In this document: positions 15,870 to 30,997 of the stretch, piece after piece
Layout of the letters: each line of letters begins with the position of its first letter
Numbering within the stretch: position 1 is the stretch's first letter
Notes under the pieces: generated by a model
Database searches by the model: none
The model's input: the letters and a program-made list of their open reading frames with translations, nothing else
What the model was told of the DNA's origin: nothing
Source of the DNA: Thermanaerovibrio velox DSM 12556
GTDB lineage: Bacteria; Synergistota; Synergistia; Synergistales; Synergistaceae
Assembly (NCBI RefSeq): GCF_000237825.1
Contig: NZ_CM001377.1
Span: 496,001 to 560,000 of the forward strand
DNA: 64,000 nucleotides
Reading direction: 5' to 3'
Program-made: the position numbers and the translations under genes

Positions 15870-16364
15870 GTGATACGGCTTTTTGTCATGGACGTGGACG
15901 GTACGCTGACGGACGGAGGGGTTTCATTTGACGTCTCCGGCACGGAGGCCAAGAGGTATCACATTCAGGACGGCATGGGGATAAAGCTCCTTCAGGCCAG
16001 GGGGGTGAGGGTGGCTTTTTTGAGTGGCCGCCACAGCGATTCCACTTCCGCTAGGGCCAGGGACCTTGGGGTGGATCTTTGTGTTCAGGGGGTTTCGAGC
16101 AAGCTCCCGGTTTTGGTATCTTGGGCGGAGGAGATGGGTATTTCGAGCCGCCAGGTGGCCTACATGGGGGATGACCTTCCGGACCTGGAGTGTCTTAGGT
16201 GGTGTGGCTTCGGGGTGGTCCCCTGCGACGGCCGGCCGGAGGCGTTGAGGGAGGCGGACTACGTTACTCCAAGCAGGGCTGGGTTTGGGGCTGTCAGGGA
16301 CGCCTGTGACCGTATAATCCTTATGAACCTTAGGGAGGGGGAGGGTCGTCATCAGGGGCTTTAG
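15870..16364 (+). CDS. kdsC: 3-deoxy-D-manno-octulosonate 8-phosphate phosphatase
   Basis: HAD-family phosphatase that converts Kdo-8-phosphate to Kdo. Motif I is FVMDVDGTLTDGG with both catalytic Asp residues, the SGRHS loop is motif II, and MGDDLPDLECL is the acidic motif. At 164 residues it is the cap-less C0 type that forms tetramers. The GTG at 15870 gives MIRLFVMDVDG, with GGAGG upstream; GTG 15843, which overlaps lpxA, is an alternative. The position beside lpxA and before the kds genes supports the specific name. Confidence 0.9.
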   Translation: MIRLFVMDVDGTLTDGGVSFDVSGTEAKRYHIQDGMGIKLLQARGVRVAFLSGRHSDSTSARARDLGVDLCVQGVSSKLPVLVSWAEEMGISSRQVAYMGDDLPDLECLRWCGFGVVPCDGRPEALREADYVTPSRAGFGAVRDACDRIILMNLREGEGRHQGL

Positions 16365-17516: not shown

Positions 17517-18335
17517 TTGTGTGTCTTGGTGGTGGCGATTGTAGCCGGGGAGGGGGATCTTCCGGTTGAGATAGCCCGGCGGCTTACGGATCTTGGGGAG
17601 CCGCCGGTGATATATTCCTTCAGGGACTCTTTGGGGCCCCTGTCCAAGTATGCCCTGGAGGTGGTGCCCTTGCCCCGGCTTGATCTGGCGGGCACCCTTA
17701 GGGACATGGAGTCCCGGGGGGTTCAAAGGGTGTACCTGGCTGGGGTGGTTCCCAAGACGCTCCTTTATCAGCCCGCCATGTTGGATCACCGGGCCAAGGA
17801 GCTCGTGGAGGGTTTATCGGAGCGGGACGACCACAGCCTTCTAGGGGCGGTGGTAAGGGCCTTTGAGGAGGTCGGCATAGAGGTTGGTTCCTACAAGGAG
17901 CTGATAGGTGATCTTTTGGCCCCCTTGGGGCACATAGGTGGTCCAGAGCCTTTCCCGTGGCAGGTGGCGGACGTGGAGTACGGGGTCTTTGTGGCCAGCC
18001 GTCTGGTGGGGCTTTCGTTTGGTCAGACCGTGGTGGTTCACCGCCGGAGCGTGGTGGCGGTGGAGGCCATGGAGGGGACCGATGCGGCGCTTTTGAGGGC
18101 CGGGTCCCTCTGCAGGGGGGGGACGGTGGTTAAGATGATGAGGTTAGACCAGGACGAGCGGTACGACATTCCCACCGTGGGTCCTAACACCTTAAGGCGC
18201 ATGGCCAGCGCCTCCCTCAAGTGTCTTGCGGTGGAGGCGGGGCGGACCATAATACTGGATCCCACGGTGTTCGTGGAGCTGGCCCGTCGGGAGGGCATAT
18301 CTGTCCTGGGGGTGTCGGGTTGTCCGTCTTCGTGA
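17517..18335 (+). CDS. lpxI: UDP-2,3-diacylglucosamine pyrophosphatase LpxI
   Basis: Hydrolyses UDP-2,3-diacylglucosamine to lipid X, replacing LpxH of E. coli (DUF1009 family, first characterised in Caulobacter). Family features are VVAIVAGEGDLPVEIARRL at the N-terminus, YLAGVVPKT, DDHSLLGAVVRAFEE, a central GTDAALLRAGSL and a C-terminal MASASLKCLAVEAGRT. Length is 272 residues, as in the family. TTG 17517 follows AAGGGGG closely; TTG 17526 or GTG 17529 are other choices. Its 3' end overlaps lpxB, the next enzyme in the pathway. Confidence 0.92.
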   Translation: MCVLVVAIVAGEGDLPVEIARRLTDLGEPPVIYSFRDSLGPLSKYALEVVPLPRLDLAGTLRDMESRGVQRVYLAGVVPKTLLYQPAMLDHRAKELVEGLSERDDHSLLGAVVRAFEEVGIEVGSYKELIGDLLAPLGHIGGPEPFPWQVADVEYGVFVASRLVGLSFGQTVVVHRRSVVAVEAMEGTDAALLRAGSLCRGGTVVKMMRLDQDERYDIPTVGPNTLRRMASASLKCLAVEAGRTIILDPTVFVELARREGISVLGVSGCPSS

Positions 18336-19423
18336 GCTGTGGTGAGGCCTCTGGGGACATGTACCTTGGGGAGCTCACGGAGCGGCTTTTGGAGAGGGGT
18401 ATTCGGGTCTTTGGCATGGGGGGTCCTAGGGTCTTGGGCGCCGGGGCCCAGGTCCTCTGGGACATGAGGGAGCTCCAGGTGGTGGGTTTTACCGAGGCCT
18501 TGGGGGCCCTGCCCAGGCTGATCAGGCTCAGGGATGCCTTGGTGCGGCATGTGATGGAGTCTCGGCCCCGGTGCGTTGTGCTCACGGACAGCCCGGACTT
18601 TCACCTTCCCCTTGCGCGGAAGCTTAGGAGCGTGGGTTACCGGGGCAGCATTGTGAGCCTGGTGCCCCCTGCGGTTTGGATCTGGAGGAGGGGGAGGGTG
18701 AGGGTTTTGAGGGAGCTTTTCGACCTTTGTCTTCCCCTGTTCCCCTTTGAGCACCGGTTTCTCCTGGAGAATGGGTGTAGGTCTTTCTTCGTCGGTCACC
18801 CCCTTTTGGAGACGGTGGAGGCGGTTGACATGCCGGACCTCTCGGGGGGGGTGGTGGCTTTTATGCCTGGCAGCAGGCCTGGGGAGTTGAGGCGGCATCT
18901 CATGCCCTTCGCGGAGGCGGCGGTGGGGCTTAGGGAGATGGGATACCGGCCGGTTTTCTCCGTTCCTGGGTCCATGCCCGAGGCCGATGCCGTTTGGGCG
19001 AGGGGTGTTTTGGAGGGCATGTCGCTCCCGTGGAGCTCCGAGAGGGGGGTGGACCTCATGGGGCGCAGCTGTTTCGTGGTGATGGCCAGCGGCACCGTGT
19101 CCCTGGAGGCCATGCTGGTGGGTCGTCCTGGGGTTGTGGCGTACAGGACCGGGTTTATCACCATGCTGCTGGCCAGGCTCTTGGTGAGGTCCCGGTGGTG
19201 TTCCCTTCCGAACATCCTCCTTGGCCGGGAGGTGTATCCGGAGCTGCTGCAGGGGGACGTGAGCGGGGAGGGGCTTTTGAGGGTCCTCCTGCCCCTTCTT
19301 AAGGGGCTTTTGGAGGGGGGCTGGAGTCGTTGGGCCCAGGCGTTCCTGGAGGGCCGCAAGGCCCTTGGGGAAAGGGGGGCCTTTGGGCTTTGGGCGGATC
19401 TTGTGGCGGAGAGGGCGGCTTGA
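18320..19423 (+). CDS. lpxB: Lipid-A-disaccharide synthase
   Basis: GT19 glycosyltransferase that joins lipid X and UDP-diacylglucosamine into the lipid A disaccharide. Motifs are VSCGEASGDMYLGELTERLL at the N-terminus, VAFMPGSRPGELRRHLMPF in the middle, and the donor-binding VMASGTVSLEAMLVGRPGVV. Length is 367 residues. The TTG at 18320 inside the lpxI end gives MSVFVSCGEASGD, with GGGGGTG upstream; the frame continues further upstream but that part is unlike LpxB. Overlap with lpxI suggests coupled translation. Confidence 0.94.
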   Translation: MSVFVSCGEASGDMYLGELTERLLERGIRVFGMGGPRVLGAGAQVLWDMRELQVVGFTEALGALPRLIRLRDALVRHVMESRPRCVVLTDSPDFHLPLARKLRSVGYRGSIVSLVPPAVWIWRRGRVRVLRELFDLCLPLFPFEHRFLLENGCRSFFVGHPLLETVEAVDMPDLSGGVVAFMPGSRPGELRRHLMPFAEAAVGLREMGYRPVFSVPGSMPEADAVWARGVLEGMSLPWSSERGVDLMGRSCFVVMASGTVSLEAMLVGRPGVVAYRTGFITMLLARLLVRSRWCSLPNILLGREVYPELLQGDVSGEGLLRVLLPLLKGLLEGGWSRWAQAFLEGRKALGERGAFGLWADLVAERAA

Positions 19424-19453
19424 GCTTGGGTAGGTCATGCGGAGAGTGGGGAC

Positions 19454-21226
19454 ATGAGTAGGCTTTTAGGCCCGTTGGGCTTAGGGGGGTTGGGTTCTGG
19501 CGCGTATCGGAGGCTTCTTGGTTTCCTAAGCCCCTACCGGACCAGGCTTTTCTACGGGGTCCTCTGCATGGGGGCCGCGTCGGTGCTTGGGGTGCTCCCG
19601 CCGTGGCTCATAAAGAACCTGGTGGACCGGGTGCTGATAGCCCGGGACCAGGGGCTTTTGGGGGCCATAATAGCCGGCATAGTGGGCATATACGTGCTTA
19701 AGGGGCTTTTCTACTACGGTCAGACGTACCTCATGACCTGGGTGGGGCAGAGGGTTCTGTTTGACCTGAGGCTTGAGCTCTACAGGAAGGTGCAGCGCCT
19801 TCCTTTCGGATATCTTTACTCGAGGCGCAGCGGGGACATACTGTCCAGGATAACCGGGGACGTGGCGTTCCTTCAGGACCTGGTTTCGTCGGTTCTGGTG
19901 GACCTGGTGGTTCAGGGTGTGACCTTCGTGGCCATACTGTGTTTTCTTCTGTCCTTGAACTGGAGGCTGACGCTGGCCACCTTTGTGATACTCCCCCTGG
20001 CGGCCCTTGTGATTAGTTTCACCACATCTCGGCTTCGGGAGGTGGGGCATGCCATACAGGAGCGTCTTGCCCGGGTGTCCGCCTCCGCCCAGGAGGCGAT
20101 CGCCTCCATGAAGGTGGTACGTGCCTTTGCCACCGAGGACATGGAGTACCGCCGTTTCGAGCGGGAGAACCGGTCTCACTTCGGGGCGCTGATGAAGGGT
20201 ACCCAGGTTAGGGGTGTGCTGGAGGGAGTTGTGGAGTTGATCCTCATGGGGGCCATGGGGCTCATAATCTGGCTTGGGGGTCGGCAGGTCCTTTCTGGTC
20301 ATATAACCGCGGGGCAGCTCATGGCTTTCCTCACGTACCTGGGGTTGATGGTGCAGCCCATAAGGGTTTTGAGCCGGGTGTTCGGTCGGGTTCAGCAGGC
20401 CCTTGCGGCGGCGGAGCGGGTTTTCGATGTGCTCGACCAGCCGGAGGAGGCCCCTGCGGCCCGCATGGCAAGGCCTCCCATAGTGGGTCGTGTGGATTTC
20501 GAGGATGTTTGGTTTCGGTATGACCCCTCATCCCCTTGGGTTTTAAGGGGGATAAGCTTCTCGGTCTCTCCGGGGGAGCGGGTGGCCTTGGTGGGTTCCA
20601 CCGGGGCGGGGAAGTCCACCTTGGTGGACTTGATCCCCAGGTTTTTCGACCCCGTGAATGGGCGGGTGTTGGTGGACGGTACGGACGTTAAGGACATGGA
20701 TCCCAGGCACTTGAGGCGTCACATAGGCATGGTGCTGCAGGATCCGGTGCTTATGAAGGGTAGTTTTGCCTTCAACATAGCCTATGGGCTTGAGGGGGTG
20801 GGTATGGAGGAGATCCGTCGGGCGGCGGAGTTTGCGGGGATAAGGGATTTCATAGAGTCCCTGCCCGATGGTTACGATACGGAGATAGGAGAGCGGGGGG
20901 TTACGTTGAGCGGCGGCCAGCGTCAGCGGGTGGCCATAGCGAGGGCGATAATAAGGAACCCCCGAATCCTGATATTGGACGAGGCGACCTCTTCCCTGGA
21001 TGCCCAGGTGGAGCGGATGATCCAGGAGTCTTTGGAGCTGGTGATGGAGGGGCGCACCTGTTTCATCTTGGCCCACCGGCTGTCCACCGTGAGGCGGGCG
21101 GACCGGATAATGGTTTTGGAGGGGGGGCTCATAGTGGAGCAGGGGACTCACGAGGAGCTTCTTGCGCTCAAGGGCCGTTACGCGGCGCTCTTGGAGGCCC
21201 AGTTGGGCGATGGGGCTGGTAAGTAG
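19454..21226 (+). CDS. msbA: Lipid A flippase, ABC transporter MsbA-type
   Basis: Half-size ABC exporter of 590 residues that, in LPS clusters, flips lipid A-core across the inner membrane. A six-span membrane domain covers about residues 20-320. The ATPase domain has Walker A GSTGAGKSTLVD near residue 381, signature LSGGQRQRVAIARA near 485, Walker B ILILDEATSSLD, and the H-loop in ILAHRLSTV. The assignment to MsbA rests on its place between lpxB and lpxK; sequence alone would allow other lipid or drug exporters. The ATG at 19454 follows GGAGAG. It overlaps the next gene by 17 bases. Confidence 0.9.
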   Translation: MSRLLGPLGLGGLGSGAYRRLLGFLSPYRTRLFYGVLCMGAASVLGVLPPWLIKNLVDRVLIARDQGLLGAIIAGIVGIYVLKGLFYYGQTYLMTWVGQRVLFDLRLELYRKVQRLPFGYLYSRRSGDILSRITGDVAFLQDLVSSVLVDLVVQGVTFVAILCFLLSLNWRLTLATFVILPLAALVISFTTSRLREVGHAIQERLARVSASAQEAIASMKVVRAFATEDMEYRRFERENRSHFGALMKGTQVRGVLEGVVELILMGAMGLIIWLGGRQVLSGHITAGQLMAFLTYLGLMVQPIRVLSRVFGRVQQALAAAERVFDVLDQPEEAPAARMARPPIVGRVDFEDVWFRYDPSSPWVLRGISFSVSPGERVALVGSTGAGKSTLVDLIPRFFDPVNGRVLVDGTDVKDMDPRHLRRHIGMVLQDPVLMKGSFAFNIAYGLEGVGMEEIRRAAEFAGIRDFIESLPDGYDTEIGERGVTLSGGQRQRVAIARAIIRNPRILILDEATSSLDAQVERMIQESLELVMEGRTCFILAHRLSTVRRADRIMVLEGGLIVEQGTHEELLALKGRYAALLEAQLGDGAGK

Positions 21227-23429
21227 TTACCTTAGGTACATATCCGGAAGGAGCCCTTTGAGTCCCTGGGCGCTTCTTTATCCTCTGCACCACCTGTCCA
21301 GGGGTCTTGTTTCGGGCCGCAACTGGCTTTACGACCACGGCATCCTTGCGGCCCAGGAGGGGCCCCTGCCGGTGATAAGCGTGGGGAACCTGACCCATGG
21401 GGGCACCAACAAGACCCCCATGGTGGAGCGGCTGGCTCGGCTGATATGTTCCTTGGGGCTCAAGCCTGGGGTGGTGAGCCGCGGTTACAGCGGTGGAACC
21501 GTGGAGCCCCTGGTGGTGGACAGGGAGACGTCTCGGGAGCTCTGTGGGGACGAGCCGCTGATGCTGGCCAGGAAGCTGCCCCAGGTTCCGGTGGTGGTAT
21601 CTAGGGACAGGATAAGGGGTGTGGAGCTTCTGAAGGCCCTAGGCGCCCAGGTGGTGGTGGCGGACGACTGTTTCCAGCATCGTCAGCTGCAGCGGGATCT
21701 TGACGTGGTGCTCGTGGATGCCACTTGTCCCTTTGGGAACGGTCTTATGACCCCCGCGGGGATGCTGCGGGAGCCTTTGGACTCCTTGCGCAGGGCCGGG
21801 ATAGTGGTGATAACCAAGTCGGACCTGGTGTCTCCGGGGGAGTTGGAGGAGCTTAAGGGGGTGTTGGAGGGCTATGCGGGGCCCCGCAGGGTCTTCCTGT
21901 CCCGGCTCAGCATGGATGGTTGGTCTGGGGAGGCTCCTTCGGGGCCGGCCTTTGCCTTCTGTGCCATAGGTAACCCCGGGAGCTTCAGGAGGTTTTTGAC
22001 GTCCCTTGGGGTTGAGCTCGTGGGTTTCTCTTCCTTTCGGGATCATCATCGGTTCAGCCCGGAGGACATGAGGCGGGTTGAGGATGAGGCGCTGAAGTCC
22101 GGGGCGCGGTGTCTTGTCTGCACTGAGAAGGACATCTTGAATTTCCCGTCCTCCTATCGTTTCAGGCTGCCTGTTTCGGTCCCCATGGTATCGGTGGAGT
22201 TCCAGGATCGGCTTGGTTTTCTTCGGGCCATGAGCGAGGGCTTGCGTCCCAGGTTCACCGTGGCCTCCAACGGTCACGGGGAGGATTCCATGGGGGTGGT
22301 GCTTTGCAGGAAGCTGAAGGAGCGGTTGCCCGCAGCTTCGGTGGAGGCCTTCCCCTTGGTGGGGGGCGGCGATGAGTATCGGGCGGCGGGTTTCCCCGTG
22401 ATGTCCCCTTCTTGCAGGATGCCCAGCGGCGGGATAGTCAAGTACAGTTTGAGGGCCCTACTGGGGGACATATTGAGCGGGCTGCCCTTGCAGGTCCTCC
22501 GGCAGTTGAGGGCCTGGAGGGATATGCCCCGGCGCACTTGTATTTGTGTTGGGGATGTTTATCTGTTCTTAAACGCCCTTTTGGGCACCGGTGTTAAGCC
22601 GGTGCTGGTAGCCACCGCCAAGACGGTTTACCTGTCCGGGCACTGGCGGCTGGAGGGGGCGCTTTTGAGGAGCCGGGCCCTTGCGGTGTGGACCCGGGAC
22701 GAACCCACCAGGGAGGAGTTGGAGCTTCGCGGGGTGAGGGCGGTCTTTGACGGCAGCCCCATAATGGACCTGGTGGGGGATGTCCTGGTGGATCCTTGGG
22801 AGGGGGCCGTGGGGCGGCGGGTTTTGGTGCTTCCTGGGAGCAGGGAGTATGCCCTTAGGGACCTTCCGCTTTTGATAGGGGCGTGCCTTGAGCTCAGCCG
22901 CAGGATGGTCTGTTCGTTCCTTTGGGTTCCCTCGGTGACGTTGGACGTGGAGCCCTTTATGAGGGAGCATGGGGTTTTAGCCGGCAGGTGCTGGGGGGAG
23001 TTCGGCGGGAGCTCCGAGATCCGGGTGTTTCGCGGCCCCGTTGCCGACGCTGCCCGGGGGGCGGAGGTGCTTCTTGGGCTTGGGGGCACTGGGAACCAGA
23101 TATGTGCGGGCCTTGGGGTGCCGGTTGTGTCCGTGGATGACCCGGGGAAGCGGGTCCAGAAGAAGCTCATCGGGGATGGGGAGGTTCTGGTACCCCGGGA
23201 TCCCGCGAGGCTTGCGGACGAGCTTGAGGGGATACTATCCGATCCGGCGCTGAGGGAGAGGATGTCGAGGGCTGGCATGGAGAGGATGGGTTCCGGTGGT
23301 GCCTTGGATGGGGTGGTGGACTGGGTTTGCGGGGAGCTTGGGTGGGGTTTGCTGACCCAGCTTTGGGAGAGGTTGGAAGTTTTGGTCAATTCCGGGGGTA
23401 GTCCTGGGGATGCTTCGAAAGGGGGATAA
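21210..23429 (+). CDS. lpxK: Fusion: tetraacyldisaccharide 4'-kinase (LpxK) + LpxB-related domain
   Basis: A 739-residue two-module protein. Residues 1 to about 345 are LpxK, the kinase that phosphorylates the lipid A disaccharide at 4': note SVGNLTHGGTNKTPMVERL, GVVSRGYSG, VVVADDCFQHRQLQRDLD and CTEKDILNF. From about 347 onward a second module begins with VASNGHGEDSMG and continues with LVGGGDEYRAAGFPV, VLVLPGSREYALRDLPLL and GLGGTGNQICAGLGVPVVS. That matches the lipid-A-disaccharide-synthase-related family (a GT-B-like fold, known as stand-alone proteins in cyanobacteria and Deinococcus). No stop or frameshift separates them. The ATG at 21210 overlaps msbA; the usual Walker A Gly is Asn (GGTNKT). 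LpxK identity is secure; the role of the second module is unknown. Confidence 0.88.
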   Translation: MGLVSSYLRYISGRSPLSPWALLYPLHHLSRGLVSGRNWLYDHGILAAQEGPLPVISVGNLTHGGTNKTPMVERLARLICSLGLKPGVVSRGYSGGTVEPLVVDRETSRELCGDEPLMLARKLPQVPVVVSRDRIRGVELLKALGAQVVVADDCFQHRQLQRDLDVVLVDATCPFGNGLMTPAGMLREPLDSLRRAGIVVITKSDLVSPGELEELKGVLEGYAGPRRVFLSRLSMDGWSGEAPSGPAFAFCAIGNPGSFRRFLTSLGVELVGFSSFRDHHRFSPEDMRRVEDEALKSGARCLVCTEKDILNFPSSYRFRLPVSVPMVSVEFQDRLGFLRAMSEGLRPRFTVASNGHGEDSMGVVLCRKLKERLPAASVEAFPLVGGGDEYRAAGFPVMSPSCRMPSGGIVKYSLRALLGDILSGLPLQVLRQLRAWRDMPRRTCICVGDVYLFLNALLGTGVKPVLVATAKTVYLSGHWRLEGALLRSRALAVWTRDEPTREELELRGVRAVFDGSPIMDLVGDVLVDPWEGAVGRRVLVLPGSREYALRDLPLLIGACLELSRRMVCSFLWVPSVTLDVEPFMREHGVLAGRCWGEFGGSSEIRVFRGPVADAARGAEVLLGLGGTGNQICAGLGVPVVSVDDPGKRVQKKLIGDGEVLVPRDPARLADELEGILSDPALRERMSRAGMERMGSGGALDGVVDWVCGELGWGLLTQLWERLEVLVNSGGSPGDASKGG

Positions 23430-23434
23430 ATTAT

Positions 23435-24169
23435 ATGTCCAAGGCTCTTGCGGTCATACCGGCCAGGTACGGCAGTACCAGGCTTAAGGCGAAGGCCCTT
23501 CTTGAGATAGGGGGCATGACGCTGGTTGAGAGGGTGTTCCGTGGGGTGGCCCAGTCGTCGGTGGATCGGGTGATAGTGGCCACCGACCATGAGGAGATAG
23601 CCCGGGTGGTGAGGGAGGCGGGTGGTGAGGCGTGGATGACCCCCTCGGAGCTTCCCTCCGGAACGGACCGGGTGGCGTACGTGGCGAGCCGGCTTCCGGA
23701 GTACCCGGTGGTGTTGAACGTCCAGGGGGATGATCCGCTCGTGGGGCCCGACATGATAGGTTTGCTTTTGAGTGCCTTGGAGGAGGATCCCGAGGCGGGG
23801 CTTGCGGTGTTGGCCAAGAGGATAGAGAAGGAGGAGGAGCTGTCCTCTCCCAGCATCGTGAAGATGGTGTTTGATCGTAGGATGAGGGCTCTTTACTTCA
23901 GCAGGTCTTTGATACCGTATCCCAGGAACGACGGGGGAGTTTGGTACAAGCACATAGGGCCTTACGCTTACAGGCGGGACCTGCTTCTCAAGTTCGCTTC
24001 GTGGGAGGTCACGCCCCTTGAGAGGGTGGAGAGCCTGGAGATGCTGAGGGTGTTGGAGAACGGGTTCCCCATAAAGTGCGTGATAACCGAGAGGGACACC
24101 ATCGAGATCGACACGGGGGACGACGTTAGGGCCTTGGAGGAGTATCTTCTCCGGCAAGGGAGGTCTTAG
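23435..24169 (+). CDS. kdsB: 3-deoxy-manno-octulosonate cytidylyltransferase
   Basis: Activates Kdo as CMP-Kdo for transfer to lipid A. A nucleotidyltransferase fold with IPARYGSTRLKAKALLEIGG at the N-terminus, LPSGTDRVAYVASRL, VVLNVQGDDPLVGPDMIG and a C-terminal ERDTIEIDTGDDVRALE. Length is 244 residues, typical. The ATG follows AAAGGGGG closely, and lpxK ends five bases upstream. Because a kdnA/kdnB-like pair lies downstream, its real substrate could be Kdo8N, as for the Shewanella enzyme; this cannot be read from the sequence. Confidence 0.93.
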   Translation: MSKALAVIPARYGSTRLKAKALLEIGGMTLVERVFRGVAQSSVDRVIVATDHEEIARVVREAGGEAWMTPSELPSGTDRVAYVASRLPEYPVVLNVQGDDPLVGPDMIGLLLSALEEDPEAGLAVLAKRIEKEEELSSPSIVKMVFDRRMRALYFSRSLIPYPRNDGGVWYKHIGPYAYRRDLLLKFASWEVTPLERVESLEMLRVLENGFPIKCVITERDTIEIDTGDDVRALEEYLLRQGRS

Positions 24170-24171
24170 GT

Positions 24172-25023
24172 GTGATTGGTTTTGAGGAGTCCGGCGTTTC
24201 CTTTGGCCTTGGTCGTCTTGCGGTGATCGCGGGTCCCTGTGCTTTGGAGGGGCTGGACCACGCGTTGATGATCGCCGAGGCCTGCAAGAGGGTTTGTGAC
24301 TCTCTGGGAGTGGGGTATGTGTTCAAGGGGTCATACGACAAGGCGAACCGTACGTCCGCGGACAGCTTTCGGGGTCCTGGGATGGAGGAGGGTCTCAGGA
24401 TCCTTTCGGAGGTGCACCGTCGTCTTGGGGTGCCGGTTTTGACGGACGTGCACGAGACGTGGCAGGTCAAGAGCGTGGCGGAGGCGGTGCAGATAGTGCA
24501 GATCCCCGCGTTCCTCTGCCGTCAGACGGACCTGGTGGTTGCGGCGGCCTCGAGCGGCAGGGTTTTGAACGTGAAGAAGGCCCAGTTCTTGGCCCCCGAG
24601 GACATGGGGTCCGTGGTGGACAAGTGCCGCCGGGCGGGTAACGACAGGGTTATGCTGTGCGAGAGGGGCAGTGTTTTTGGGTACAGGCAGCTGGTGGTGG
24701 ACTTCAGGTCCATGCCGATCATGAGGGAGATGGGCTGTCCTGTGGTTTTTGACGCCACTCACAGCGTCCAGTCCATGGGTGGGCTTGGGGGTAGGAGCGG
24801 CGGGGACAGGAGGTTTGTCCGTCCCCTTTTGAGGTGTGCCGCCTCCCTTGGGGTGGATGCCTTCTTCCTGGAGGTTCATCAGGACCCCGACAAGGCCCCC
24901 AGCGACGGCCCCAACATGGTTCCCTTGGAGCTTTTCGGTGGGTTGATGGCGGAGGTAAAGGGGATATGGGACCGGGCCATGGAGAGCGGTTTTGCGTCCC
25001 TTGATTGGGTGGAGATGCCATGA
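24172..25023 (+). CDS. kdsA: 3-deoxy-8-phosphooctulonate synthase (metal-dependent type)
   Basis: Condenses arabinose-5-phosphate with phosphoenolpyruvate to Kdo-8-phosphate. Core motifs are VIAGPCALEGLDHALMIAE, FKGSYDKANRTS, DVHETWQVKSVAEAVQIVQI, FDATHSVQSMGG and a C-terminal HQDPDKAPSDGPN. The Cys in AGPC marks the metal-dependent class exemplified by Aquifex; the E. coli enzyme has Asn there. Length is 283 residues. The GTG start at 24172 has GGGAGGT upstream and sits two bases after kdsB. The stop overlaps kdsD. Confidence 0.94.
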   Translation: MIGFEESGVSFGLGRLAVIAGPCALEGLDHALMIAEACKRVCDSLGVGYVFKGSYDKANRTSADSFRGPGMEEGLRILSEVHRRLGVPVLTDVHETWQVKSVAEAVQIVQIPAFLCRQTDLVVAAASSGRVLNVKKAQFLAPEDMGSVVDKCRRAGNDRVMLCERGSVFGYRQLVVDFRSMPIMREMGCPVVFDATHSVQSMGGLGGRSGGDRRFVRPLLRCAASLGVDAFFLEVHQDPDKAPSDGPNMVPLELFGGLMAEVKGIWDRAMESGFASLDWVEMP

Positions 25024-26023
25024 TGTTGCCTTACGAGAGGGATATCTCCAGGGTGGGGGATCGGGAGCTTTTGGAGACGGGGCTCGAGGTGATGCGGGAG
25101 GAGGCGGCGGCGGTCTTGGCGGCGGCGGACCGGATGGGGGATGAGCTGGTTCGGGCTGCCAGGATGGTGGCCTCCTGCTCCGGCAGGGTTGTGGTGTGCG
25201 GCCTTGGCAAGTCGGGGCTCATCGGCCGCAAGATAGCCGCTACCCTTGCCTCCCTTGGGTGTCCCGCTTTTTTCCTGCACGCCGCGGAGGGTTCCCACGG
25301 GGACTTGGGGATGGTGTGCCGGGGGGATGTGGGGTTGTTCCTAAGCAACAGCGGCACCACCAGGGAGGTCTTGGAGATAGTGCCTTTCTTCAGGCGCATA
25401 GGATGTCCCGTGGTGGCCATGACCGGTCGTTTGGACTCCCCCCTTGCCCGTTCGGCGGACGTGGTTTTGGACTGTTCGGTTAGGCGTGAGGCGGATCCAT
25501 TGGGCATAGCCCCCACCAGCAGCACCACCCTTCAGCTGGCGGTGGGAGACGCGTTGGCGGGGATGGTGACCCGGCTTTTGGGTTTGAAGGAGGAGGACTT
25601 TGCCCTCTTTCACCCCGGTGGTGCCCTAGGCAGGAGGCTGCTCTTGAGGTTGTCGGATGTGATGGCCCAGGGGGACCGGGTGCCCCGGGTGGCCTCCTCG
25701 GCCTTGGTGAAGGAGGCGCTGTTTGAGATGACCCACAAGGGCTACGGGGCGGTGGCGGTTGAGGGGCCTGAGGGGCTCTTGGAGGGCATATTCACCGATG
25801 GGGACCTGAGGCGGCTGATGGAGCGTCGTGGGGTTGACGCGCTGGAGCTGCCGTGGGGGATGTGATGACCTTGTCGCCCAAGGTGATGCCTCCCCACAAG
25901 CTTGCGGCGGAGGCCTTGAGGCTGATGGAGGAGATGGAGATATCGGTGGTGCTGGTGGCGGAAGAGGGGCGTCTTCTCGGCATAGTCCACCTGCACGACC
26001 TTTTGAAGGCGGGGGTGGCCTGA
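25020..26023 (+). pseudogene. kdsD: Arabinose-5-phosphate isomerase KdsD, split by a one-base frameshift
   Basis: Converts ribulose-5-phosphate to arabinose-5-phosphate, substrate of KdsA. The SIS domain (VVCGLGKSGLIGRKIAATLA, LSNSGTTREVLEI) and the first CBS domain (GYGAVAVEGPEGLLEGIFTD) are intact up to ALELPWGM and a stop at 25863-25865. The second CBS domain continues at once in the frame that starts around 25853 (GDVMTLSPKVMPPHKLAAEA, then LLGIVHLHDLLKAGVA) and stops at 26021-26023. One extra G near 25853 (giving LPVGDVMT) would restore a 334-residue protein, the normal KdsD length. Either a base is missing, the gene has lost its last CBS domain, or a -1 slip on the GGGGG run rejoins the frames. 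Kdo synthesis needs the activity, so an error or recoding is plausible. Confidence 0.85.
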
Positions 26024-26025
26024 GG

Positions 26026-27279
26026 TTGGGGCCCTTTGCCCGTTGGTTGGTTAGTTTCATTGAGGGGTGTGCCTTTACCGTTGCCTCCCCTTGGTTGAAG
26101 GGGCGTTACGACCGGTGGGAGGAGAGGACTGGGGCTTTACCCTTCCCCGAGATTGTGGAGCCGGTGGTTTGGTTTCACGGGGTATCGGTTGGGGAGGTTC
26201 AGGCCGCCTGGCCGGTTGCGAAGGCCTTGAGGGACGCCGGTTACGATGGGGTCCTTGCGGTGAGTGCGGTGACCCGTACGGGTATGAGGACCGCCATGGA
26301 TCTCATGGGGGGTCTTGCGGATCTGTTCCTTGCCTACCCTTGGGACAAGAGGGGATGGGTGAGGGGTTTCCTTGACAGGTTAAGGCCGTGGGTCTACGTG
26401 GCCTTTGAGACCGAGATGTGGCCCACCCTCATATGGGAGGCAAAGTCCCGTGGTGTCAAGCTGGTGCTGGCCAACGGCAGGGTATCCGATCGGTCCTTTA
26501 GGGGGATGATGAGGCTCAGGGGGTTGTATGGGGACCTTTTGGGGTGTTTTGATGCCGTATTTCCCCGGGGGTCTGTGGATGGGGAGAGGCTTCTTGCCCT
26601 TGGGGTGCCGGAGGGGGTTTTGAGGGAGGCGGGGGACGTGAAGGCCGACGGGGTATGGCTGCGCCGGTTGAACGCGGACCTTTCGGGCTACTCCTTCCGG
26701 GGGGATCTATTTGTGGCGGGGAGCACCCATCCCGGGGAGGAGGAGGAGGTTCTAAGGGCCTTTCTCCTTGCCCGGTCCGCGGGTTTTGGGGGTCTTAGGC
26801 TGGCGTTGGTGCCTAGGCATCCCGAGAGGGCGGGGGATTGTCTGCGTCTTTGCCGTGATCGGGGACTTCGGGCGGAGCTCTTCTCTGAGGATCCCAGTCT
26901 TTGCGGGGATTTTGAGGTTGTAGTGGTGGACCGGGTGGGGGTGTTGTTCTCCCTTTACGGGCTTGCGTCGGCGGCCTTTGTGGGGGGCAGTCTTGTCCCA
27001 AAGGGGGGGCAGAACGTGATGGAGCCCGCGGTTTGGGGGGTGCCGGTGATGTTCGGTCCCCACATGGAGGACTTTGTGGAGCAGCGGGATCGGTTGTTGG
27101 AGTCCCGGTTGGGCTTTGAGGTCCTCTCCGGCGACGAAATGGGGGAGCGTTTAATCGAACTTCTTGGGTTAAGGTGTAGAATCTCATCCTGTGGGGCCCT
27201 TTTTGGGTCTGGGGATGAGATGTCCGCCTCCCGGCGGGTGGCCTCGGAGGTCTTGGGGCTTCTTGAGGGGAGTTTTTAG
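26026..27279 (+). CDS. waaA: 3-deoxy-D-manno-octulosonic acid transferase
   Basis: GT30 enzyme that transfers Kdo from CMP-Kdo to lipid IVA. It has an N-terminal membrane-associated helix (FARWLVSFIEGCAFTVASPW) and the family motifs VVWFHGVSVGEVQAAWPVAK, VYVAFETEMWPTLIWEAKSR (catalytic Glu region), VAGSTHPGEEEEVLRAF and FVGGSLVPKGGQNVMEPAVW. Length is 417 residues from the TTG at 26026, three bases after kdsD. The conserved GGHN is GGQN here. The frame extends upstream across the kdsD second CBS domain, but that part is the wrong frame for kdsD and unlike WaaA. Whether it adds one or two Kdo units is unknown. Confidence 0.92.
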   Translation: MGPFARWLVSFIEGCAFTVASPWLKGRYDRWEERTGALPFPEIVEPVVWFHGVSVGEVQAAWPVAKALRDAGYDGVLAVSAVTRTGMRTAMDLMGGLADLFLAYPWDKRGWVRGFLDRLRPWVYVAFETEMWPTLIWEAKSRGVKLVLANGRVSDRSFRGMMRLRGLYGDLLGCFDAVFPRGSVDGERLLALGVPEGVLREAGDVKADGVWLRRLNADLSGYSFRGDLFVAGSTHPGEEEEVLRAFLLARSAGFGGLRLALVPRHPERAGDCLRLCRDRGLRAELFSEDPSLCGDFEVVVVDRVGVLFSLYGLASAAFVGGSLVPKGGQNVMEPAVWGVPVMFGPHMEDFVEQRDRLLESRLGFEVLSGDEMGERLIELLGLRCRISSCGALFGSGDEMSASRRVASEVLGLLEGSF

Positions 27280-27326: not shown

Positions 27327-28481
27327 ATGTTCAACGCCAACGTGGCGGGCAAGATGCGTTTTGGCGTGGGGGTATCCTCCACGGTGGGAGATGCGGTGAG
27401 GTCTTTGGGGGCTGAGAGGGCGGTTTTGGTGACCGATTCCACCATGGAGTCCTTGGGGGTGGCGGACAAGATATGTTCGTACCTTGAGGGGGCTGGGGTA
27501 GAGGCCTTTGTTTTCGCTGGGGTGGAGCCGGAGCCGTCGGTGGAGACCACCGATGCGGTGGCGGAGCTGGCCAGGGAGCACGACTGCCAGGCGGTTGTGG
27601 GTCTTGGGGGCGGCAGCTGTCTGGACGTGGCTAAGGCGGTGAGCGTGCTGATAACCAACGAGGGCAGTGCGGCCCGGTACCAGGGGTTGGGTTTGGTTAA
27701 GAACCCCGGGGTTCCCAAGGTGATGATCCCCACCACCGCTGGGACCGGTTCTGAGGTGACCTTTACGGCGGTGTTGATCCGCAAGAGCGACGGTTTCAAG
27801 GGGGGCATAAACGACGAGAAGCTGTTCCCCGATCTGAGCCTGTTGGATCCGGAGCTCACGGTGACCATGCCTCCGGCGGTCACCGCCAGCACCGGGATGG
27901 ACGCGTTGGTTCACGCGTTGGAGGCTTTCAGCGGCCGCAGTGCCAGTCCCTTCAGCGACATGTTCGCCCGGGAGGCCATGAGGCTAATAGGCCGCAGCAT
28001 AAGGACCGCCACTTGGAACGGCAGGGACATGGAGTCCAGGAGCGCCATGCTCTTGGCCTCCTATTACGCGGGGGTGGCTTTGGCCAACGCGGGGGTTGGG
28101 GCATGTCATTCCCTGGCGTACCCGTTGGGGGGCATGTTTGGGGTGGGTCATGGCTGCGCCAACGCCCTTTTGATGCCCTACGTGGCCCGTCACAACGCGG
28201 TGGCCTGCGTGGACAGGTATGCGGAGGCCTATGAGCTCTTGGGGGGTGTGGCGGAGGGCTGGCCCAAGAGGGAGGCGGCCTTTGCCCTGGCGGAGCTCTT
28301 GGAGGAGCTGGTGGGGGACCTGGGGCTTCCGTCCAGGATGTCGGAGCTCAAGGTGGGCATAGAGGAGCGGCACTTCGACGAGATGGCGGACCGGGCCATG
28401 GCGGTGGCTCGTCCCATGGAGAACAACCCGAGGTTTATGGACAAGAAGGCCTGCATGGCCATATACAAGGAGGCGTATTAG
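27327..28481 (+). CDS. kdnB: Iron-containing alcohol dehydrogenase, KdnB-like (Kdo 8-dehydrogenase)
   Basis: A 384-residue group III metal-dependent alcohol dehydrogenase. NAD binding: VVGLGGGSCLDVAKAVSVL and PTTAGTGSEVT. Metal ligands Asp and His are in STGMDALVHALEAF and two further His in ACHSLAYPLGGMFGVGHGCA. Such enzymes act on many alcohols, but this one sits four bases before a DegT-type aminotransferase and directly after waaA. That pairing matches Shewanella KdnB/KdnA, which oxidise C8 of Kdo and aminate it to Kdo8N. Start ATG 27327 follows GGGGTGGTG; GTG 27315 is possible. A housekeeping fermentative dehydrogenase is the alternative. Confidence 0.75.
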   Translation: MFNANVAGKMRFGVGVSSTVGDAVRSLGAERAVLVTDSTMESLGVADKICSYLEGAGVEAFVFAGVEPEPSVETTDAVAELAREHDCQAVVGLGGGSCLDVAKAVSVLITNEGSAARYQGLGLVKNPGVPKVMIPTTAGTGSEVTFTAVLIRKSDGFKGGINDEKLFPDLSLLDPELTVTMPPAVTASTGMDALVHALEAFSGRSASPFSDMFAREAMRLIGRSIRTATWNGRDMESRSAMLLASYYAGVALANAGVGACHSLAYPLGGMFGVGHGCANALLMPYVARHNAVACVDRYAEAYELLGGVAEGWPKREAAFALAELLEELVGDLGLPSRMSELKVGIEERHFDEMADRAMAVARPMENNPRFMDKKACMAIYKEAY

Positions 28482-28484
28482 GAG

Positions 28485-29684
28485 ATGCCGGGTTTTGAGC
28501 TTTTTGATCAGCGGGAGATCGATGCGGTGGCGGAGGTGCTTCGCCGCCGGATAGTGCACCGTTATTCCTTCCAGGGGGTTAGGGAGGGTATTTACAAGGT
28601 GGAGGAGTTCGAGGGGGCTTGTGCTGGGAAGTTCGGGTCCCAGTATGCCCTTGGGGTATCCTCGGGGAGTGCGGCCCTGTACGTGGCCCTGAAGGCCTGC
28701 GGGATAGGGCCCGGTGACGAGGTCATAACCACGCCCTTTACTTTCATAGCCAGTGTGGAGGCCATACTGGAGTGTGGCGCCGTGCCGGTGCTGGGGGAGA
28801 TAGACGAGAGTTTGAACTTGGATCCCAACTGCGTGGAGGACCTGGTGACCGACCGGACCAGGGCGGTGATGCCGGTTCACATGTTCGGGGCCTCGGCGGA
28901 CATGGACGCCTTCAAGAGGGTCTGTGAGGACTATGGCCTCATGCTCTTCGAGGACGCCTGCCAGGCCATGGGGGCCAGTTACAAGGGCCGTTACTGCGGT
29001 TCCATGGGGCTTTGGGGCACCTTCAGCCTGGACCCGTATAAGATAGTCACTGTGGGGGAGGGCGGAATGGTGCTCACCTCCGATGAGGAGCTTTACCACC
29101 GGATGGAGTATTACCACGACCACGGTCACGTGCACGACAAGTCCATAGACCGGGGGGCGGAGCGGAAGGCCTGTCTTGGGTTCAACTTCCGGATGAGCGA
29201 GATCCAGGGGGCTTTGGGCCTTGTGGGGTTGGAGAAGCTGGACACTGCCATAGGGATGCTCAGGGCCACCAGGGACAAGGTGCTGGGGGAGATCAAGGAC
29301 TTAGGCCTTAAGACCCGTCAGCTGCCGGACCCGGAGGGTGAGCTGGCCACCCAGATAGTGTTCCTGCTGCCGGACCGGGAGGCCGCGAGGCGTTTCCAGG
29401 GGGCTGCCAAGGAGGCGGGCTTTGGATGCGGCATCCTGAGCGACAACACCTGGCACTACGCCAGGCACTGGGACACCTTGAGGGACGGGAAGGTTTACTC
29501 CCGGGTCCGTTGTCCCTATGATTGTCCCCATGCGGAGTACGTGCCCGCCTACAGGCCCGCGGAGTGGCCGGTGACCCACTCGATACTGGAGAGGGCCGCG
29601 GTGTTCGGGCTTGACATCCTTATGGACGACCGGCGGGTGGAGACCCTGATCGGTGCCATAAGGGCCGGGGCCAAGGCCATTTAA
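28485..29684 (+). CDS. kdnA: DegT/DnrJ/EryC1 aminotransferase, KdnA-like
   Basis: A 399-residue PLP-dependent sugar aminotransferase. Features are LGVSSGSAALYVALKACGIG, ITTPFTFIASVEAILECGAV, PVHMFGASADMDA, the Asp of FEDACQAMGASYKG and the lysine-bearing SLDPYKIVTVGEGGMVLTS. Together with the preceding dehydrogenase it fits KdnA, which makes 8-amino-3,8-dideoxy-D-manno-octulosonate (Kdo8N) for LPS. Family members more commonly aminate nucleotide sugars, so the Kdo assignment leans on context: it lies in the kds/waaA operon. The start ATG is one base past the kdnB stop region with GGAG before it. Confidence 0.75.
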   Translation: MPGFELFDQREIDAVAEVLRRRIVHRYSFQGVREGIYKVEEFEGACAGKFGSQYALGVSSGSAALYVALKACGIGPGDEVITTPFTFIASVEAILECGAVPVLGEIDESLNLDPNCVEDLVTDRTRAVMPVHMFGASADMDAFKRVCEDYGLMLFEDACQAMGASYKGRYCGSMGLWGTFSLDPYKIVTVGEGGMVLTSDEELYHRMEYYHDHGHVHDKSIDRGAERKACLGFNFRMSEIQGALGLVGLEKLDTAIGMLRATRDKVLGEIKDLGLKTRQLPDPEGELATQIVFLLPDREAARRFQGAAKEAGFGCGILSDNTWHYARHWDTLRDGKVYSRVRCPYDCPHAEYVPAYRPAEWPVTHSILERAAVFGLDILMDDRRVETLIGAIRAGAKAI

Positions 29685-29802: not shown

Positions 29803-30997
29803 GTGCTGATGGCCAGGGGTGTCAGGGTTTTGGTGCTCAGCGATGGTGTGGCGGGGCGATGTGAACCAGAGCCGGGGGGTCGCTTTGTGGTTTCGCCGGG
29901 CCCTGGGGGAGCGTGGGGTGCCGGTGGAGGTCCACGAGCGGGAGGTGCCGAGGCTTTCGGGGTTCTCCTCTGCCAGGGCCAGGGCTTCTTCGCTGTTCCT
30001 CAAGTCCGGGGGGCGGCGGAAGGCCCGGGATTGGTTGGCGTCCTTCGGCGGGGATCTCCCGGGTTTTGTTGAGGGGGGCAGTCTCGGCGGGGAGGGGTTT
30101 CTGATCCTCTCCGCGGGGAGCCGCTGTGCTCCTTACAACCTTGCCTTAGGTCTTTTGTTCGGGGCGGTCAGCGTGACCATAATGACCCCTTCGGTGTTGG
30201 GGCTTGATCCCTTTGACTACGCCATAGTGCCGGAGCACGACAACCCACCGAGGCGCAGCAACGTCTTCAGCACCCTTGGGGCTCCTAACTCGGTGGATCC
30301 TGGGGAGCTGGAGGCCCGCGGTGCGGCCCTGGCGGAGCTGTTCCCCCCTGTGTCTGAAAGGCGCTGGGCCCTTTTGGTGGGCGGTGATGACCGGAACTAC
30401 CGGGTGAGCCCCAGGTGGGTACGGCGGGAGGTGGGGGTGCTCTTGAGGAGGGCCGAGGCGTTTGGGGCGGACCTTTACGTCACCACCTCCCGCAGGACCT
30501 CCAGGGAGGCGGAGGATGCCTTGGAGAGGCTCTTATGCGGGAGCGGGGCGGTGAGGATGTACCTTCCCGCCTCCCGGTGTTCCGAGAACCCGGTGCCGGG
30601 GATGTTAGGGCTTTGTACCCGGGTGTTCTGCACCGAGGACTCGGTGTCCATGGTGTCCGAGGCGGTCACCGCGGGGCACCGGGTGGTGCTCATGCGGGTG
30701 GATAGGGTGGGGGGCATGAGGTCCGGTTTGTCCCGGTTTTTGATGAGTGCCCATGAAGGCGGGGTGGTCCCGAGGGGGGTTTTGTTCGGTCCTGCCAGGT
30801 TTGACCAGCTCTTTGGGGCTCTGCGGCGCCAGGGGCTTTTGGAGGAGTGGGGGCTGCTCAAGCGGGAGATGCCCATGGTGGACGGGTTGGGCCGTGTGGT
30901 GGTGCCGGAGGATCCGAGGCGGGGGGCCAGCTTTAACGAGGCCCGTCGATCCGCCCTGTGGCTGGCGGAGAAGCTTTTAGAGAAGTGGGGGTTTTGA
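29803..30997 (+). pseudogene. ELM1-family (DUF1022) protein with a one-base frameshift near the N-terminus
   Basis: Most of the protein reads in one frame from about 29861 to the stop at 30997 and matches the mitochondrial-fission ELM1 family (PF06258): VVPEHDNPPRRSNVFSTLGA, WALLVGGDDRNYRVS, VTTSRRTSREAEDAL and CTEDSVSMVSEA. The expected N-terminus, VRVLVLSDGVAG, is encoded in a different frame from GTG 29803 or ATG 29809. The frames meet at GGGGCGATGTGAACC (29853-29867), where deleting G29858 would give GHVNQSRG, the family's N-terminal motif, and a 395-residue protein. As written, translation would need an internal start. Bacterial members lie in LPS loci and have a GT-B-like fold, so a glycosyltransferase role is possible but unproven. 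It abuts the O-antigen-ligase-like gene. Confidence 0.75.

Follow-up and report, generated by a model that had tools for sequence, protein, structure and literature searches.

Does the lipid A gene cluster of Thermanaerovibrio velox, an anaerobic, thermophilic member of the Synergistota, encode a route to Kdo8N, the form of Kdo in which the C8 hydroxyl is replaced by an amine? In almost all lipopolysaccharides (LPS), Kdo joins lipid A to the remainder of the molecule. Kdo8N is regarded as a hallmark of Shewanella (PMC6357163), and in the papers searched both the sugar and the dehydrogenase KdnB are tied only to that genus (PMC6357163, PMC5125639). The C8 signal of Kdo8N has been reported near 44-45 ppm for Shewanella (PMC6357163); in mass, Kdo8N lies 0.98 Da below Kdo. 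In Shewanella oneidensis it is made by the KdnA-KdnB-KdsB pathway (Gattis 2013, as cited in PMC5125639; structures 5k8b and 5k8c). A first-pass annotation of the window, the 64,000-nucleotide stretch of T. velox DNA analysed here, had reported a KdnB/KdnA-like pair downstream of the Kdo genes and predicted Kdo8N in the LPS. The T. velox genome is a single contig of 1,880,838 bp. Gene content, homology, clade membership, dehydrogenase exclusivity and the KdsB residue pattern are established here by computation. The relevant features of the window are as follows.

15873..16325, + strand: kdsC-like Kdo-8-phosphate phosphatase, predicted source of free Kdo (NCBIfam TIGR01670 above cut-off, sole match in the genome)
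17517..23429, + strand: lipid A run of lpxI-like, lpxB, msbA and lpxK, the last fused to an LpxB-related (TIGR03492) domain (open reading frames; TIGR00215, TIGR00682, TIGR03492, PF02684 and PF02606; lpxI and msbA named by sequence)
23435..24169, + strand: kdsB, CMP-Kdo synthetase of the KdnA-linked type (TIGR00466, clade, residues)
24172..25023, + strand: kdsA, Kdo-8-phosphate synthase (TIGR01362, 373 bits, above cut-off)
25020..25865, + strand: kdsD, arabinose-5-phosphate isomerase (TIGR00393), with a frameshift near 25860
26005..27279, + strand: waaA, Kdo transferase (PF04413, 160.8 bits; the reading frame opens at 25828)
27327..28481, + strand: ADHw, group III (iron-type) alcohol dehydrogenase, predicted Kdo 8-dehydrogenase (PF00465/PF25137)
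28485..29684, + strand: KdnA, PLP aminotransferase, predicted to transaminate 8-oxo-Kdo to Kdo8N (best PDB match 5k8b, alignment, tree)
29819..30997, + strand: ELM1-family protein (PF06258; synteny)

The metal-dependent alcohol dehydrogenase and the DegT-type aminotransferase are both present where they had been placed, on the + strand with 3 bp between them, after waaA and downstream of kdsB, kdsA and kdsD. The dehydrogenase, here called ADHw, has candidate starts at ATG 27327 and GTG 27315 and ends at 28481. One amendment concerns kdsD, which is frameshifted in the T. velox assembly at about 25860, the second CBS domain being continued in a different frame close to the run GTGGGGGATG; comparison of frames shows the gene intact in a relative of the same genus (L084). 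The order KdsD-WaaA-ADH-KdnA or KdsB-ADH-KdnA is kept in 30/30 Synergistota genomes of the ADHw type, which argues that the pairing in T. velox is not due to chance. Two further features of the operon deserve mention. The fusion of lpxK to a TIGR03492 domain (‘lipid-A-disaccharide synthase-related’) at 21222-23429 has counterparts in similarly long reading frames of phylum relatives. A gene for an ELM1 (mitochondrial fission ELM1, PF06258) protein lies 3′ of kdnA in many ADHw-type Synergistota operons; it is probably an envelope glycan gene, possibly coding for a glycosyltransferase, and the Kdo8N model does not need it.

The aminotransferase is a true relative of KdnA, as judged from sequence. 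Its best match among solved structures is S. oneidensis KdnA (5k8b, 286.7 bits), followed by a perosamine synthetase at 175.5 bits. Aligned with Shewanella KdnA, to which it is ∼43% identical, it keeps the MPGFELF start (MPGxELF), HDHGHxH, NxWHYxxxW and the PLP lysine. In the KdnA tree, which like the KdsB and iron-type alcohol dehydrogenase (FeADH) trees below is a quick tree with support given by SH-aLRT only, the window protein falls in one 50-row group with Shewanella, Bacteroidota and Desulfobacterota sequences, and other DegT aminotransferases stand apart (SH-aLRT 99). The proposal of a KdnA-like aminotransferase is thus borne out by closest solved structure, motifs and family tree. KdnA-like aminotransferases also occur in marine Prochlorococcus (L147) and Pelagibacteraceae (L187), where KdnB and ADHw are absent nearby; these proteins are probably other sugar aminotransferases.

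The dehydrogenase had been called KdnB-like, and as a statement of family membership this does not hold. Among solved structures, ADHw scores best against a methanol dehydrogenase (265 bits) and a 1,3-propanediol dehydrogenase (249 bits), and KdnB (5k8c) reaches 126.6 bits, about 29th of 48 PDB matches. In the FeADH tree, KdnB of Shewanella, Bacteroidota and some Synergistota forms one clade with support 100, and ADHw lies outside it. Together with all other KdnA-linked non-KdnB enzymes, ADHw instead forms a 25-row clade (support 92) nested among enzymes of the methanol/propanediol type. PDB ranking and tree together rule out ADHw as a member of the KdnB clade. The protein retains the metal ligands D192, H196, H261 and H275 and the GGGS motif, and the two other iron-type alcohol dehydrogenases of T. 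velox fall in neither the KdnB nor the ADHw clade. None of the NCBIfam equivalogs accepts ADHw or the window KdnA at its cut-off. A search for substrate-pocket convergence between ADHw and KdnB brought out D76, T147 and N162, too few for a claim, and T147 is matched in Shewanella-type KdnB only.

The distribution of the two dehydrogenases speaks to their function. KdnA was found in 57 of 121 Synergistota genomes. Counted over these related genomes, 27/57 carry KdnB and 30/57 carry ADHw, with none having both and none having neither; KdnB without KdnA occurs in 0/121. ADHw adjoins KdnA in all 30 genomes of its type, and exclusivity with KdnB rules out a chance adjacency. Outside the phylum, KdnB is present in KdnA-bearing genomes of Shewanella, Sulfurivirga, Desulfosudis and Bacteroidota; five Desulfobacterota-like KdnA-positive genomes lack KdnB and have ADHw at 44-47% identity. 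The class II KdnAs of Synergistota, which go with KdnB, branch from within the group that goes with ADHw (support 100/99 in the KdnA tree), showing a swap of the dehydrogenase partner with KdnA retained. Two KdsB clades likewise each occur with both dehydrogenase types. Mutual exclusivity and partner swap together indicate that ADHw and KdnB carry out the same reaction, the swap being the strongest argument. We therefore predict that ADHw represents a second family of Kdo 8-dehydrogenases, a separate clade of group III. One genome with ADHw also encodes, far from kdnA, a distant KdnB-like dehydrogenase that is 42% identical to Shewanella KdnB (G025:C1:1851476-1852468; L341, L373). KdnB was reportedly described at first as an oxygen-using enzyme, and a later crystal structure is said to show tightly bound NAD(H). 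ADHw is probably NAD-linked, which would fit a strict anaerobe.

Further evidence comes from the CMP-Kdo synthetase. A KdsB resembling that of the window (N-type) is present in 55/57 KdnA-positive and 4/64 other Synergistota genomes (p = 5.5e-27, uncorrected for relatedness). Among the four N-type genomes without KdnA, two are explained by contig ends, the contigs of G095 and G086 stopping inside ADHw or just after kdsD; a third, G071, has N-type KdsB with KdnA absent. On the other side, G009 has KdnA and no clear KdsB in a genome that is 77% complete, and the N-type KdsB of G058 is truncated. The T. velox KdsB carries D100 (bases 23732-23734) in place of the ordinary E, beside D99, and E224 (bases 24104-24106) in place of the ordinary G/S, two residues before D226. 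D99 and D226 are the Mg-A ligand aspartates; positions 100 and 224 map beside D95 and D219 of Aquifex aeolicus KdsB, which are its Mg-A ligands (PMC3149649).

Both positions separate KdnA-linked from ordinary enzymes. Ordinary KdsBs read QGDE (E at position 100 in 48/48) and the residue two places ahead of their second catalytic Asp is G or S, in some cases N. The KdnA-type enzymes read QGDD in 46/46 Synergistota and QGDQ in 14/14 sequences from the Shewanella order, Sulfurivirga, Desulfosudis and Desulfobacterota-like genomes. E224 is found in 59/60 KdnA-type KdsBs (Synergistota 45/46, Shewanella order 6/6, other 2/2, Desulfobacterota-like 6/6) and in 0/47 ordinary ones. Bacteroidota are less uniform: E224 is present in 12/15 KdsBs, three from KdnA-bearing genomes lack it, and most keep E at position 100. 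T. velox thus has the Shewanella-like pattern of non-E at 100 and E at 224, although position 100 is D here and Q in Shewanella, and the motif D[ST]xE[VI]D occurs in the KdnA-linked KdsBs of either lineage. The Synergistota type and the Shewanella/Desulfobacterota type fall into two separate clades of the KdsB tree, whose deep forks are weak (63). The acidic residue at 224 could bind the 8-ammonium group of Kdo8N. A natural test case for the KdnA-KdsB link is offered by G113 (L100, L374), which has ADHw on a long branch and N-type KdsB but no KdnA. Alone among the Synergistota N-type enzymes, its KdsB lacks E224 and M203, with S and Q in their places; both changes are toward the ordinary state, so that loss of the KdsB signature coincides with loss of KdnA. 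T. velox itself has a single KdsB, of the N-type, and ordinary KdsB is absent from its genome. Since only this type is available, its Kdo is probably all Kdo8N, which would make Kdo8N the sole inner-core Kdo of this organism.

These results suggest the following pathway. KdsD, KdsA and KdsC would supply free Kdo, whose C8 hydroxyl would be oxidised by ADHw to the 8-aldehyde. KdnA would transaminate the aldehyde to Kdo8N, the adapted KdsB would load Kdo8N onto CMP, and WaaA would attach the sugar to the precursor of lipid A. ADHw would thereby fill the role that KdnB has in Shewanella, although the two belong to different clades within the group III alcohol dehydrogenases. We place the probability that T. 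velox uses the cluster in this manner to synthesise Kdo8N and incorporate it into lipid A at about 0.8; the substrates, the cofactor, Kdo8N as product and its position in lipid A are predictions drawn from comparative genomics. The Kdo8N prediction of the first-pass annotation is well supported by the KdnA structure match, the tree, the co-occurrence with a special KdsB and the KdsB residue shared with Shewanella. No enzyme assays or LPS structures for any Synergistota, T. velox included, were found in the papers searched.

Other readings of the locus differ in what the dehydrogenase does and where the sugar goes. ADHw might be a fermentative or housekeeping enzyme that lies beside kdnA by accident, with KdnA using another oxidoreductase or substrate. 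Its best solved relatives, the methanol and 1,3-propanediol dehydrogenases, and its scores below the cut-off of every NCBIfam equivalog would suit such an enzyme, and grouping with fermentative families is part of what the first-pass annotation had named as grounds for rejecting Kdo8N. By sequence the dehydrogenase does group in this way; the same job as KdnB is still indicated by exclusivity and partner swap. The constant adjacency to KdnA, the strict exclusivity with KdnB and the placement of the two other T. velox iron-type dehydrogenases in neither clade make a housekeeping role highly improbable.

Alternatively, ADHw and KdnA could aminate a related 3-deoxy-ulosonate or another position of Kdo, yielding an amino-Kdo other than Kdo8N that KdsB would activate. 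The modest identity between the two KdnAs, the different dehydrogenase clade and the D rather than Q at KdsB position 100 leave some room for this. We nonetheless consider it unlikely, because KdnAs from a single group of the tree have either type of dehydrogenase as partner, the D[ST]xE[VI]D motif is common to both lineages, and C8 bears the only primary alcohol in Kdo, the simplest target for an iron-type alcohol dehydrogenase. The destination of the sugar could also differ, the module making Kdo8N for a capsule or O-chain and not for lipid A. In some Synergistota the block of KdsB, dehydrogenase and KdnA does lie apart from the lipid A genes, and a second, ordinary KdsB is present. In T. 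velox, however, the pair follows waaA in a run of lpxB, msbA, lpxK and kdsB, and there is no ordinary KdsB, so a capsular or O-chain role is improbable here. Incorporation of Kdo8N into lipid A by way of ADHw and KdnA is the best explanation; the first-pass interpretation is largely supported, with its KdnB-like label corrected.

The phylogenetic reach of these modules is broad. The locus had been described as placing the pair in a very different phylum, which understates the spread: KdnA modules are also found in Bacteroidota, Desulfobacterota/Syntrophales and Sulfurivirga. Many Flavobacteriaceae and Chitinophagaceae (L139, L142, L148, L170 and similar) carry kdnA alone, with kdnB beside kdsB elsewhere in the genome. 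They are predicted to be Kdo8N makers, and in the papers searched no Kdo8N chemistry is known for them. It seems quite likely that Kdo8N is an inner-core sugar of several phyla, made via either KdnB or ADHw and readable from genomes by KdnA together with a KdsB Glu two residues before the Mg-ligand Asp, a Glu that is less consistent in Bacteroidota. Should Synergistota, Bacteroidota and Desulfobacterota indeed make this sugar, inner cores with a positive charge would be much commoner than thought, with possible effects on membrane stability and the binding of cationic peptides. ADHw would be an unstudied candidate family of Kdo C8 dehydrogenases that could work without oxygen. The KdsB residue test would let Kdo8N be predicted from genomes, and mass spectrometry of cultured species could then put such predictions to the test. 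What appears to be new is the clade of the dehydrogenase, the breadth of the distribution and the residue signature in KdsB; the logic of the pathway was known before.

Compared with the S. oneidensis pathway, T. velox likewise clusters a KdnA relative, a group III alcohol dehydrogenase and an adapted KdsB with Kdo genes, and the same two steps of C8 oxidation and transamination are predicted. It differs in that the dehydrogenase and, in the quick tree with deep forks at 63, the KdsB come from other clades, and in that the module belongs to a lipid A operon, in an anaerobe of the Synergistota. The KdnB subfamily corresponds to FeADH3 (cd08184) (PMC5125639); ADHw is predicted to catalyse the same Kdo C8 oxidation, yet tree and PDB ranking both place it outside the subfamily. 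With the methanol/1,3-propanediol-type group III enzymes (8zrl, 3bfj), ADHw shares fold family, the four metal ligands and the GGGS nucleotide motif, but it forms a KdnA-linked clade of its own. Finally, the T. velox KdsB resembles the ordinary enzymes of Escherichia coli and A. aeolicus (2y6p) in fold, catalytic aspartates and reaction type, and departs from them by E to D at position 100, by G/S to E at position 224 and by its separate clade.
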